A DNA stretch of 49,121 nt, taken from assembly GCF_014647195.1 (NCBI RefSeq), contig NZ_BMOS01000026.1, positions 1 through 49,121 on the forward strand. The letters run 5' to 3'. Below, piece after piece: positions 38,572 through 42,731 of the stretch. The position numbers were made by a program, and so were the translations under genes. The notes beneath the pieces were generated by a model. The model was not told where the DNA came from, searched no databases, and worked only from the letters and a program-made list of their open reading frames with translations. Source of the DNA: Oceanobacillus indicireducens (lineage in GTDB: Bacteria > Bacillota > Bacilli > Bacillales > Amphibacillaceae). Each line of letters starts with the position of its first letter. Within the stretch, counting starts at the first letter, position 1.

Positions 38572-38864
38572 GCACTTTTTCTTGCATTTTGATGGGGAAT
38601 ACGTTATATTTAAATTGTGATAGTTAGTGAAAATGTTCACAAGTTAAAGTGTGAGAGGGATTTCAATTAAGTGATGGTTAAGGGAATTTACTCTTACCCT
38701 TTATTGTTCGAATGGGAGTGGGGTCTTCGGTAATTGCTATGTTTACGATAGGTAAGCGTAGGGTAATTATCTTAAGAAATAAAGTATCCTGCTATTATTA
38801 ATTTTCTAAAAAATATCTTATTCGAACTGTTGTAGTGTATAAAATATGAGAAGGGAGCAATAAC

Positions 38865-39470
38865 ATGATGAATCTAATCGGAATAGTTGGAACGAACTCA
38901 GACCAATCCACGAATCGTCAATTACTAGAATTTATGCAAAAACATTTTGCTGAAAAAGCGAACATTGAACTTTATGAAATTAAAAATTTGCCTGCATTTA
39001 ATAAACCTAGAGACACCACAGCACCACCTGAAGTGCAGGATCTTTCGGATAAAATTAAGGAAGCGGATGGGGTTATCATCAGCACACCAGAGTATAATCA
39101 CTCTGTCCCAGCTATTTTAAAAAGCACATTGGAATGGTTATCTTATACGACTCAACCACTTATTGATAAACCGGTCATGATTACTGGAGCATCATACGGT
39201 CGCCTAGGTTCTTCCCGTGCCCAGTCACACTTGAGACAAATTCTTGATGCACCGGAATTGAAAGCACGTATTATGCCAAGTTCTGAGTTTCTGGTTGGCC
39301 TATCTTTACAAGCTTTTGATGAGGATGGCAAGCTTGCCGATCCAAACAAAGTGCAGGAACTAGAAGAAATCTTTAATGAATTTATCCAATTTGTAGATAT
39401 TACAAAGCAATTAGTTAAAACGAATCCTAATAAAAACAAATCCAAAAGTTTTTCTTGGGAGAAGAATTAA
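38865..39470 (+). CDS. NADPH-dependent FMN reductase
   Basis: 201-residue flavodoxin-fold reductase (FMN_red family) reducing flavin, quinone or azo substrates with NADPH. FMN-binding segment GTNSDQSTNRQLLEFM (about 8-23), STPEYNHSVPAILKSTLEWLS (about 76-96) and TGASYGRLGSSRAQSHLRQIL. It is about 50% similar by eye to the first 185 residues of the next gene, so the two are paralogues in tandem. ATG 38865 follows AAGGGAG; a second ATG comes next. The C-terminus is basic (KNKSKSFSWEKN) and lacks the PAS and tail of its neighbour. Confidence 0.9.
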   Translation: MMNLIGIVGTNSDQSTNRQLLEFMQKHFAEKANIELYEIKNLPAFNKPRDTTAPPEVQDLSDKIKEADGVIISTPEYNHSVPAILKSTLEWLSYTTQPLIDKPVMITGASYGRLGSSRAQSHLRQILDAPELKARIMPSSEFLVGLSLQAFDEDGKLADPNKVQELEEIFNEFIQFVDITKQLVKTNPNKNKSKSFSWEKN

Positions 39471-39487
39471 TCCAGGGAGGTATATAG

Positions 39488-40675
39488 ATGAAAATCGTTG
39501 GAATCGTCGGATCAAATGCTGAATTTTCATATAACCGTTTATTATTAAATTTTATCGCTAAAAATTTAAAAAACTTAGTTGATGTTGAAGTGCTCGATAT
39601 TGATGAAGTTCCGATGTTTAATCAATCGGATGATCAAACGAACAGTGAACCGATTCAATATTTAAATAAAAAGATAGTTGAGGCAGACGGAGTTATTATT
39701 GCGACACCAGAGTATAATCATTCGATACCTTCTGCATTACAAAGTGTTCTTGAATGGTTATCCTTTAAAATACATCCCCTTGATGGAAAACCAGTCATGA
39801 TTGTAGGAGCTTCCTATGACGTCCAAGGGTCTTCCCGCTCTCAGCTTCATTTGCGCCAAATCCTTGACGCCCCGGGTGTGAATGCTGTCGTCATGCCAGG
39901 TAACGAATTCCTGCTTGGCGAGGTGCATCAAGCTTTTGATGAAGATGAGAATTTGAAAGATGCTAGCACCGTTCAATTCCTTGAGAGTTGTATTAAGAAA
40001 TTTATTCGTTTCATTAATGTAGTAACGATTATCGACTCACCCGAGGGAATGAAAGATGTATCGAGTACAGAGGATTTATATGCTACAGGGAAAATCGATA
40101 CAACAATTGAAGGCGTCGATATGGAAGCCGAAGATTGGGTCGAGCAGGCTGCTGAAGCGGTGGGAGCAGTTGAAGGTGATACGTACGTGAAATTGGACCG
40201 AGGAATTTTAACCGTTAATCAGTTGAATTACTTTCTAAAATCTATGCCGGCTGAATTAACGTACGCAGATAGCAATAACCAATTCCTGTATTATAACCGC
40301 ATGTATGAAGCGGAAGACATGTTAGCATCCCGTACACCGGCACAGGTTGGTAATCCACTAGCTAAGTGTCACCCGGAAAGAACCTATAGCGGAGTTGCGT
40401 GGGTCATTCAGCAACTACGTAAAGGAAAAGAAGATGTCGTCCGAGCGCATGTGCCAACCCATGGACCAGATAAGTTCGTTGTGCACAGCTATCAGGCCAT
40501 TCGGGATGAGGAGGGAAATTATCTTGGAATTAACGAATACGTCCAAGATATCAAACCGATTATTGACTGGTACTTGAAGCAAACCGGACAACAATTAACC
40601 GGTGGCGATGTTGATGCAGTCTCCGGAGCTACAGAAAAAGTAGATACGGTATCGGGAGCAACCGCTCAAGATTAA
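39488..40675 (+). CDS. FMN reductase-PAS fusion with double flavinylation tail
   Basis: 395-residue three-part protein. Residues 1-185: NADPH:FMN reductase ([56 protein letters not shown]). Residues about 237-362: PAS domain like the C-terminal PAS of DUF438 proteins ([55 protein letters not shown]). Residues 373-392: [17 protein letters not shown], two copies of the D-x-x-S/T-G-A-T motif to which ApbE attaches FMN through the final Thr (Thr382, Thr392). No FMN_bind domain and no signal peptide. ApbE is encoded downstream, supporting covalent flavin in this protein. Confidence 0.85.
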
Positions 40676-40696
40676 TAATGAAAAGAAACATAGGGG

Positions 40697-40722
40697 AAAG
40701 AGGTCTCTATGGCCTCTTTTTT
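40697..40722 (+). terminator. Terminator after the reductase pair
   Basis: AGAGG (40699-40703) and CCTCT (40713-40717) form a short hairpin followed by T6. It lies between the flavinylated reductase and apbE, so apbE may have its own promoter or depend on readthrough. Confidence 0.75.
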
Positions 40723-40770
40723 CGAAAGCTAACAAAGATAAAATAAATATGCTGTGAACTTAGGTATCTA

Positions 40771-41132
40771 GGGCGAGCCACGTCCGGCTCCAGCGCCCAG
40801 CAACGAGCAGATCTTTTGGTGGGACGAGCAGTGCGCAGTCCCAAACTTCACACTCTTCCAATCGATAAGTCAACATCAACTCAAAACTAAAGGAGGACCG
40901 CTTAAATACGGGCTAAAGCCCAACAACGGCATACCCCTTAAAGGGGCATGTTACCTTTATCTCATTGCGTAAAAGGGAAGTTCGATTAAGTTCGCCCCGT
41001 CCTGGGGCAACATCGAACTACCTTCCGTCCTAGGAGGCACAGTTTGTACGTTGCTACGACGCACAGGATGTGCTAGTACAGGCGTTGCGACAGGACGTCG
41101 CGTACTTAAGCCTGTAAGGGCACTTGCGCCTT
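40771..41132. other. GC-rich array of hairpins before apbE
   Basis: At least seven hairpins in 360 bp: GGGCGAGCC../GGCTCCAGCGCCC (40771-40798), GGGAC/GTCCC (40821-40842), GGGCTAAAGCCC (40910-40921), CCCCTTAAAGGGG (40934-40946), a long stem GGGAAGTTCGAT..GCCCC / GGGGC..ATCGAA.TACCTTCC (40975-41026), GCACAGGATGTGC (41061-41073), GCGACAGGACGTCGC (41087-41101), and AAGGGCACTTGCGCCTT (41116-41132). It is more GC-rich than its surroundings and has no credible ORF. It resembles long structured intergenic repeats of Bacillus-group genomes containing CTCCAGCGCCCAG. Confidence 0.7.
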
Positions 41133-41168
41133 TGATCAATTTTCACGTGGAAGGATGAGGTTTGCCGA

Positions 41169-42095
41169 ATGAAAACTCGTGAAATACATATGATGGGTAC
41201 GATTATTCAATTATCGGTTCAGCATAAATACGCGGATTTTGTCTTAGATGAATTGATTATTCGCCTTGAGGAATTTAATAAACGCTTCAGTGCCCATGAC
41301 CCGGACTCAGAATTGATGCAGATTAATAAAAACGCTGGAATCATGCCAGTGAATGTCCACCCTCAGTTATACGAACTGATTAAAATTGGAAAATTACATA
41401 GCACGCCTGCAGACAGTTCTTTAAATATTGCAATTGGTCCGCTTGTTGAAGCATGGCGCATTGGTTTTGGCGGTACAGAAGTTCCAGCAGATAAAGAGAT
41501 TCAAGCTTTACTTCCTAAAACGGATCCGATGAATATTATTCTTAATGATGCGGAACATACCGTGTTTTTAAAAGAACCCGGAATGTTCATTGATTTGGGG
41601 GCGCTAGCAAAAGGCTTTATAGCGGATCTATTGATAAATGATATTGAAACGCTGGAAGTGAAAGCGGCCATCATTAATCTGGGCGGGAATGTCCTCACCT
41701 ATGGAAAATCACCAAATCAGCCAGATGGATTCTTTCGCATTGGAATTCAGTATCCATTCGAGGCGCGTGGAAATCATATCGCGATTGTTAAAGCATTCAA
41801 TCAATCCGTCGTTACTTCTGGCATCTACGAAAGAAAATTAACCTTAAATAATAAGACTTACCACCATATTTTAGATCGGCACATAGGTTATCCGATTGAA
41901 ACTGAAATTGCTGGCTTGACTGTTGTATCCAAACGTTCAGTCGATGGTGAAATTTGGACAAGCCGTTTATTCGGGAAGTCGGCTGAGGCAACAATTGCTG
42001 CTTTAGAAGCAGTAGAAGATGTCACGGGAATAGTCATTACAAAAAACGGAGAGCTTCATTATTCCGAATCGCTCCAGCCATATTTGGTTATTTAG
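41169..42095 (+). CDS. apbE: FAD:protein FMN transferase ApbE, cytosolic type
   Basis: 308-residue flavin transferase that moves FMN from FAD to a Thr of the D-x-x-S/T-G-A-T motif. Family segments: HMMGTIIQLSVQ at the start, FNKRFSAHDPDSELMQIN, NIAIGPLVEAWRIGFGG, IDLGALAKGFIADLL, AIINLGGNVLTYG, SVVTSGIYER and HHILDRHIGYPIET. It has no signal peptide or lipobox, unlike the exported lipoprotein type, so it acts inside the cell. The only visible target in the window is the double-tagged reductase upstream, also signal-less. GGATGAGG lies before ATG 41169. Confidence 0.92.
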   Translation: MKTREIHMMGTIIQLSVQHKYADFVLDELIIRLEEFNKRFSAHDPDSELMQINKNAGIMPVNVHPQLYELIKIGKLHSTPADSSLNIAIGPLVEAWRIGFGGTEVPADKEIQALLPKTDPMNIILNDAEHTVFLKEPGMFIDLGALAKGFIADLLINDIETLEVKAAIINLGGNVLTYGKSPNQPDGFFRIGIQYPFEARGNHIAIVKAFNQSVVTSGIYERKLTLNNKTYHHILDRHIGYPIETEIAGLTVVSKRSVDGEIWTSRLFGKSAEATIAALEAVEDVTGIVITKNGELHYSESLQPYLVI

Positions 42096-42330: not shown

Positions 42331-42663
42331 GAGAGAGAATGTATTTAATCACTTGAGTGGAATTATTTAGTGTGCTTTGGTTGATTAGAGTGCTTCTTAC
42401 TTCTGAATAGAGATTATTTAGTTTATTTCAAATTGATTAGAGTACTTCTAATCACTCGAGCAGAAATTATTCACCTTGCTTCGTTAGAATAGAGCGCTTC
42501 TCATCGCTTGAGCAGAAAATTATTTCCTTGCTCCGTTTGAATAGAGCACTTCTAATCGTTCGGGCGTAAATTTTTTGCTTTATTTTAGTTGAATAGGGTA
42601 CTTCTAATCGCTTGAGCGTAAATAATTTACCTTACTTCGGTTGATTAAAGTGCTTCTAACCAG
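42331..42663. repeat. 52-bp degenerate tandem array, ~6.4 units
   Basis: Units begin at 42331 (diverged), 42383, 42435, 42487, 42539, 42591 and 42643 (partial), exactly 52 bp apart with no length change. A typical unit starts GAATAGAGYACTTCTAATCG, continues CTTGAGCAGAAATTATTTAC and closes CTTGCTTCGGTT. Units differ at roughly a quarter to a third of positions. 52 is not a multiple of three, so this is not a coding repeat. It fills the gap between sspP and the RNase H-like gene. Confidence 0.92.
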
Positions 42664-42731
42664 AAAGATCTTACTCAATTCAGCCGTTTAAATGCTTTTA
42701 TCATCAAAGAAATAGACAAGGGGAGGGGTTT

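Follow-up and report, generated by a model that had tools for sequence, protein, structure and literature searches.

We analysed a stretch of Oceanobacillus indicireducens DNA (contig NZ_BMOS01000026.1 of assembly GCF_014647195.1, positions 1 to 49,121 of the forward strand; all 49,121 nucleotides are called the window) and identified, from open reading frames (ORFs) and Pfam, three consecutive plus-strand genes that may work together as a redox system in the cytosol. They encode FR1, a stand-alone FMN_red paralogue; FRPAS, in which an FMN_red domain is followed by a linker, a PAS_10 domain and a C-terminal tail with two flavinylation motifs; and ApbE, an FAD:protein FMN transferase. The best overall explanation, to which we give an even chance, is a cytosolic three-protein redox cassette in which FMNs on the FRPAS tail act as swinging carriers. 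ApbE, which carries no signal peptide, would transfer FMN from FAD to the last Thr (or Ser) of the tail motifs, FRPAS and FR1 would oxidise NAD(P)H at FMN_red sites like those of ChrR and YhdA, and the tethered FMNs would swing electrons between PAS_10 and FMN_red sites, whether those of FRPAS itself, of FR1 or of both. Alternatively, the electrons of the tail FMNs could end on an acceptor docking at PAS_10. Flavinylation of FRPAS itself is very probable, judging from its sequence and from a lactococcal precedent.

An initial annotation of this DNA described a 395-residue protein that ends with DAVSGAT and DTVSGAT and joins FMN_red to a PAS domain, and the ORF and its Pfam matches agree. The FMN_red domain (PF03358) scores 129 bits against a curated cut-off of 24 and forms the N-terminus. 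The PAS domain is PAS_10, as in known members of the DUF438 family; the DUF438 region itself (PF04282) and hemerythrin were unmatched in FRPAS by Pfam up to E 0.1. The tail was proposed to be flexible and to lack an FMN_bind fold, consistent with the absence of a Pfam match to FMN_bind (PF04205) up to E 0.1 and with an AlphaFold2 model in which tail pLDDT is about 28-40 and the mean for the protein is 82.9. The first motif fits the consensus D-[GAIQ]-[IALVF]-[ST]-G-A-[ST] as quoted in PMC10722498, and the second, with Thr at its second position, falls outside it.

The tail motifs are conserved far beyond the window. Using the linker and PAS region as query, with the tail excluded, we scanned named genomes and took 80 loci (L062-L141), the best of 95 encoding a relative, from genera that include Oceanobacillus, Virgibacillus, Gracilibacillus, Lederbergia, Enterococcus, Vagococcus, Trichococcus, Tetragenococcus, Atopostipes and Lapidilactobacillus. 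The reductase domain is present in the FRPAS proteins of 79 loci, and 78 of these 79 tails were scored; L121 was omitted when its anchor pattern was unmatched, though its end carries motifs, and the copy of L110, split in two, was left unscored. The 78 tails, 28-76 residues long, contain 182 motifs of the form D-x-x-[ST]-[GS]-A-[ST], compared with 0 in the 78 protein bodies. Shuffling the tails for 1000 rounds gave a mean of 0.6 motifs and a maximum of 4, and we therefore reject a chance origin. Most tails contain two motifs (48), and the others have three (19), four (6) or one (5); Ala/Pro-rich linkers connect the tags in Lapidilactobacillus and some enterococci. Since the motifs are conserved while their spacing and number vary, this pattern fits tags on a flexible arm and not one fixed anchor.

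Conservation of the tail motifs had been set beforehand as a test that could refute the prediction, and it was also found within the window's own family (159 genomes). With linker, PAS and tail as query (191 aa), we observed matches of at least 69% identity at 26 places in 24 genomes, the window included; the remaining matches listed, at 31-36% identity, are a different kind of protein. At least one D-x-x-[ST]-G-A-[ST] motif is kept in all 24 FRPAS proteins examined (24 of the 26 places, window included). ApbE occurs in 41 of the 159 genomes, comprising 24/24 with FRPAS and 17/135 without it, and lies within about 3 kb of FRPAS at 25 of the 26 places, the exception being G154, where ApbE is encoded elsewhere. 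The proposed link to apbE neighbourhoods thus holds, as it does in the wider set, where apbE is adjacent in 70 of the 80 loci.

The third member of the cassette is the most constant neighbour. FR1 is found in all 80 loci, in the orders ApbE-FR1-FRPAS (44), FR1-FRPAS-ApbE (25) and FR1-FRPAS with no nearby ApbE (10); one further locus has an extra ORF of PAS and tail ahead of ApbE-FR1-FRPAS. The initial annotation suggested that this simpler paralogue may share substrates, but its constancy makes a role as partner more likely than substrate sharing alone. The FR1 of the window ends in the peptide FSWE and has no flavinylation motif, and [FYI]-[STND]-W is found near the FR1 C-terminus in 79/80 loci. 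This F-x-W-E/D-type terminal peptide looks like a docking peptide; it is absent from the lactococcal FR1 proteins of L177 and L223. Pairwise distances are correlated between FRPAS and ApbE (r 0.84), FRPAS and FR1 (r 0.83), and FR1 and ApbE (0.68), which shared ancestry alone could explain.

Both FRPAS and its ApbE appear to be cytosolic. Read from the sequence, neither N-terminus in the window shows an export signal (ApbE starts MKTREIHMMGT), as had been predicted, and none of 69 relatives' cassette ApbEs has a lipobox within its first 40 residues. The N-termini of these ApbEs are also unhydrophobic, with a top 15-residue mean of 1.47 compared with 2.29 for the lipoprotein-like ApbE on contig C20, the only other ApbE found in the window genome. 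The window ApbE thus departs from the usual exported-lipoprotein form, though cytosolic ApbEs are known, and we rejected exported or membrane electron transfer for FRPAS when no export signal was seen. In other respects ApbE is a typical member of its family: PF02424 scores 215 bits against a cut-off of 25.6, and the signature residues MGT, DLG..AKG...D, LGGN and TSG are conserved in at least 98% of 70 aligned cassette ApbEs, the window's included.

The cassette is also widespread in a family (f41) that we take to be Streptococcaceae; one of its genomes encodes an FRPAS with 99% identity to a Lactococcus lactis plasmid protein. In this family, 242 of 295 genomes match the lactococcal FRPAS at E 1e-15, a count that includes matches to FMN_red only. 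Among the matches listed we counted by eye 150 places, all of which span the query from residue 1 to at least 384 of 403, two with an internal stop. In one genus (g94, taken as Streptococcus), the best match is below 1e-100 in roughly 200 of at most 248 genomes, again by eye. ApbE lies beside FR1-FRPAS in 10 of 11 regions (L225 is without it), and 30 inspected loci yielded 29 usable ORFs with 1-3 motifs each, two in 20 of them. Additionally, some copies are on plasmids. Full-length relatives occur on Enterococcus faecium plasmids such as NZ_CP011282.1 (L146), with flanking IS1216 copies and a gene for a helix-turn-helix (HTH) protein upstream, and L. lactis plasmid relatives such as L177 (NZ_CP110850.1) lie near a gene for a Crp/Fnr-type regulator. 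The FRPAS gene of plasmid pA12-4 has no annotation and matches in two pieces.

The modules of FRPAS are found in other combinations. Two genomes (G434 and G364) encode PAS_10 proteins (245 and 244 aa) that lack an FMN_red domain and whose tails carry three motif sites apiece. The only ApbE of these genomes (308 aa, with no visible signal peptide) is encoded at another place, some 2 kb away from a pair of bare FMN_red genes; one example of each kind was examined by Pfam. Of the three ORFs of this kind listed in the table, that of L129 is located 5′ of a complete cassette and might be the remnant of a gene. In contrast, G590 encodes a 270-aa FMN_red protein with one tail motif, no PAS and its own ApbE directly 3′. 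In G154, a protein of the order FMN_bind-FMN_bind-PAS_10 with no evident signal peptide (L251:5098-6183) is divergent from apbE, and an OYE-FMN_bind gene is on the opposite side of apbE. Untagged PAS_10 relatives in the window's family (L027-L032), taken from the matches at 31-36% identity, were hemerythrin-PAS_10 proteins in 6/6 cases checked by Pfam, without FMN_red or tags, and in two of these DUF438 was above the cut-off. PAS_10 is therefore paired with two kinds of covalent-flavin site (tail tags and FMN_bind) and with hemerythrin, which we read as a sign, from few lineages, that it functions together with redox domains, including tethered flavin. The residues C-H-P of PAS_10 are invariant in 66 aligned proteins; as a ligand site they were dropped after a crude pattern matched only 3 of 29 Streptococcaceae-like proteins.

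Palindromes upstream of a subset of the cassettes suggest possible control by oxygen or NADH. The palindrome in the window has one mismatch to TTGTGAA-N4-TTCACAA and one to TGTGA-N6-TCACA. Perfect TGTGA-N6-TCACA sites are found 5′ of the cassette in 16 of the 80 relatives, 13 of them FR1-first loci, at a density of 16 in 31,577 upstream bases compared with 2 in the remaining 771,941 bases of the same loci. Rex-like sites with at most 3 mismatches occur in 27/80 loci compared with 5% in Markov-resampled controls. The palindromes do not distinguish Crp/Fnr from Rex, with Crp/Fnr fitting at least equally well; the main text of a paper on Rex of Streptococcus agalactiae (PMC8376106) contains none of FMN, oxidoreductase, thiamine biosynthesis or apbE. 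Homologous HTH genes lie directly upstream in 36 of the 80 loci (gaps of -58 to 269 bp), for example at L086:1981-2847 in an ApbE-first locus, where the one product called by Pfam is an HTH_3 regulator with possible tetratricopeptide (TPR) repeats matching below the cut-off. No such gene was found alongside the remaining 44 loci; with the exception of L120 and L132, every FR1-FRPAS-ApbE locus is among these 44.

Several observations weigh against swinging carriers as the explanation. No strict G-A motif is present in 15 of the 78 tails, which have S-A only; since the consensus quoted in PMC10722498 demands G-A, some sites are possibly unused. ApbE is not adjacent in 10/80 loci, of which L070, L100 and L141 are at contig ends. 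In a class sample, just 31 of 398 genomes, from 9 of 145 genera, had the PAS region at E 1e-30, which makes the cassette patchy beyond a few groups. The PAS-less 270-aa FMN_red protein beside ApbE indicates that PAS is unnecessary for tagging, and the FMN_bind-PAS_10 architecture was seen in 1 of 159 family genomes and in 0 of 398 phylum genomes (the latter scan having no positive control), so it was rejected as a common architecture. The AlphaFold2 model, of a single ligand-free chain with pTM 0.49, puts the tail in no pocket. Finally, in the S. agalactiae strain SA53, the last gene of what is probably the same cassette changes by +3.55 in the proteome and by -2.12 in the transcript, values as printed in PMC6224512.

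The alternative we take most seriously, though it falls clearly short of an even chance, is that the tail merely retains the cofactor: the tail FMN would dock in an FMN_red pocket, either in the same chain or in FR1, and so make a covalent flavoenzyme out of a dissociable one. This is how PMC11334425 reads the lactococcal FMN_red proteins it describes. It accommodates the tailed FMN_red protein that lacks PAS, and it could account for two being the commonest number of tags (48/78 and 20/29 tails) if the pair serves both FMN_red proteins in the cassette. However, the three or four tags of 25/78 tails outnumber one pocket per chain, and the tail lies beyond PAS_10, at the chain end opposite FMN_red, and is also found on PAS_10 proteins without FMN_red. 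A further argument comes from the Arg of GS-x-R in ChrR, which we take to bind the FMN phosphate. FRPAS has Ala11 at this position (GSNAEFSYN aligned with GSLRKGSFN), as Ala is found in 77 of 79 FRPAS proteins, and this could accommodate a phosphate that the tail already holds as an ester. The argument is weakened by the untailed FR1, which also lacks the Arg (Ser, Gly or Ala in 76/80, with 4 unscored), and by the other FMN_red proteins of the window genome, of which, by our reading, just 3 of 7 have it. Our two controls, the hemerythrin-PAS_10 relatives and the Arg position across other FMN_red proteins, point opposite ways and do not shift the odds. We give a carrier role for the tail FMNs, as opposed to mere retention, an even chance, and regard PAS_10 as partner of the tethered flavin as a little less probable than that. 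A 'swinging flavin arm' in its full form, with one to four FMN tags, PAS_10 as docking or reaction site and NAD(P)H:FMN reductases donating electrons both in cis and in trans, is put forward only tentatively.

PAS domains are common sensors, and FRPAS could instead be a redox sensor and not an enzyme, its PAS_10 with tethered flavin signalling the state of NAD(P)H or oxygen to a partner, for example the HTH-TPR-like regulator whose gene adjoins the cassette upstream in 36 loci. We consider this improbable, as the gene was not found at the other 44 and the presence of two FMN_red proteins in each cassette points to catalytic flux. Least probable by far is a tail that is a disordered extension whose tags stay unmodified in vivo: against this stand the 182 motifs against 0.6 by shuffling, the linkage of the cassette to a signal-less ApbE, and the two lactococcal FMN_red tails published as flavinylated (PMC11334425).

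The spacing of the genes in the window appears to be a local feature. The initial annotation correctly placed apbE downstream of FRPAS, at a distance of 494 bp; the gap is 493 bp and is filled by a genome-wide repeat mosaic, and the spacing is therefore local and the mosaic is outside the mechanism. The mosaic contains two inverted copies of Rfam Bacillaceae-1, at 40970-41037 (+) and 41060-41128 (-), and matches 73 places in the genome, the window's included. Terminator-like hairpins in the region number 2 compared with 3.5 expected from shuffles, and so provide no evidence on their own. A degenerate tandem repeat with 52-bp spacing lies 3′ of apbE at 42381-42692.

Features of the cassette in the window, followed by tailed PAS_10 ORFs at other loci
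Feature	Position	Strand	Basis
Crp/Fnr- or Rex-like palindrome TAGTGAAAATGTTCACAA, 5′ of the cassette	38625-38642	.	Pattern match
FR1, stand-alone FMN_red paralogue, 201 aa	38865-39470	+	Pfam FMN_red, E 1e-37
FRPAS, FMN_red + linker + PAS_10 + tag tail, 395 aa	39488-40675	+	ORF, Pfam, AlphaFold2
FRPAS FMN_red domain, residues 1-147	39488-39928	+	Pfam, E 1.4e-37
FRPAS PAS_10 domain, residues 246-356	40223-40555	+	Pfam, E 9.7e-28
FRPAS C-terminal tail, residues 367-395, predicted disordered	40586-40672	+	pLDDT <50, residues 373-395
Motif 1, DAVSGAT, residues 376-382; predicted FMN on Thr382 (codon 40631-40633)	40613-40633	+	
Motif 2, DTVSGAT, residues 386-392; predicted FMN on Thr392 (codon 40661-40663)	40643-40663	+	
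Terminator-like hairpin 3′ of FRPAS	40689-40711	+	Pattern only
Genome-wide repeat mosaic in the FRPAS-apbE gap	40755-41165	.	73 matching places in genome
ApbE, FAD:protein FMN transferase, 308 aa	41169-42095	+	PF02424, E 1.5e-63
PAS_10 + tail ORFs without FMN_red domain	L217:5016-5750, L218:5006-5740, L129:547-1239		

The initial annotation knew of no description of this arrangement; however, its core idea is already contained in the work of Huang et al. 2024 (PMC11334425). This paper describes FMN_red proteins beside apbE whose C-terminal extensions have one to two motifs, and reports that two lactococcal examples are flavinylated and that covalent FMN needs the predicted Ser/Thr. Like FRPAS, these Firmicutes proteins have an FMN_red domain, a motif-bearing C-terminal extension and an apbE neighbour. 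A bare tag on a reductase is thus already known, and the tagged FMN_red cassette with PAS_10 is a variant of it. The main text of the paper does not contain 'PAS' as a whole word, and by our reading its extensions are unstructured, with no domain added; in FRPAS, PAS_10 lies ahead of the tail. An untailed paralogue, constant here, goes unmentioned in sections 6 and 7. The published lactococcal protein could be of either the FRPAS kind or the PAS-less 270-aa kind; one genome encodes both, and its FRPAS shares 99% identity with the lactococcal plasmid protein. The accession of a published L. lactis protein, WP_021723379.1, is absent from the gene tables of pA12-4, pA12-3 and pA12-2, which are incomplete and exclude pA12-1. 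In open-licence PMC articles we found no functional study of a PAS-containing tagged protein, no paper on PAS_10 function by title, and no prior description of the PAS_10 partner, the variable tag array, the constant paralogue or the module swaps.

Published data from streptococci may already include the cassette. In S. agalactiae SA53, apbE and two genes for 'NADPH-dependent FMN reductase' have consecutive gene tags and change together (-2.09, -2.11, -2.12); each of the three products is classed as cytoplasmic, and proteome data include the last of them (PMC6224512). From their names and order, we infer that these genes are the same cassette. SP1470-71, listed as apbE and azr_1 (PMC11559097), probably belong to it as well.

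ApbE flavinylation is explained chiefly as preventing flavin loss outside the cytosol, as stated in PMC11334425. A conserved multi-tag cytosolic substrate that occurs in many enterococci, as well as in Bacillaceae-type genera and Streptococcaceae-like genomes, calls for a different explanation. The natural variants, with the tail on FMN_red or on PAS and with one to four tags, make the question of carrier or anchor directly testable.

Other known systems share single features with FRPAS. The Klebsiella fumarate reductase is, as described in PMC12052999, cytosolic and flavinylated with a signal-less ApbE, and so likewise pairs a cytosolic ApbE with a soluble reductase; unlike it, FRPAS has bare tags and no FMN_bind or fumarate-reductase-type domain by Pfam. 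In the flavin-tag method, a terminal motif of seven residues is reported to be enough for ApbE (PMC12052999, PMC10722498), but that tag is an engineered tool and the FRPAS tail is natural. Among DUF438/hemerythrin/PAS_10 proteins, with the solved relatives 2qkp (the SMU_1151c C-terminal domain) and 3cax (PF0695), the six we checked have hemerythrin in place of FMN_red and lack tags. The ChrR- and YhdA-type reductases (3svl, 1nni) share the N-terminal fold of FRPAS, with target-normalised TM-scores of 0.84-0.87, and FRPAS differs in having GS-N-A for GS-x-R and in its fusion to PAS_10 and the tail. Flavins swinging on such a tail would be comparable in their logic to lipoyl swinging arms.

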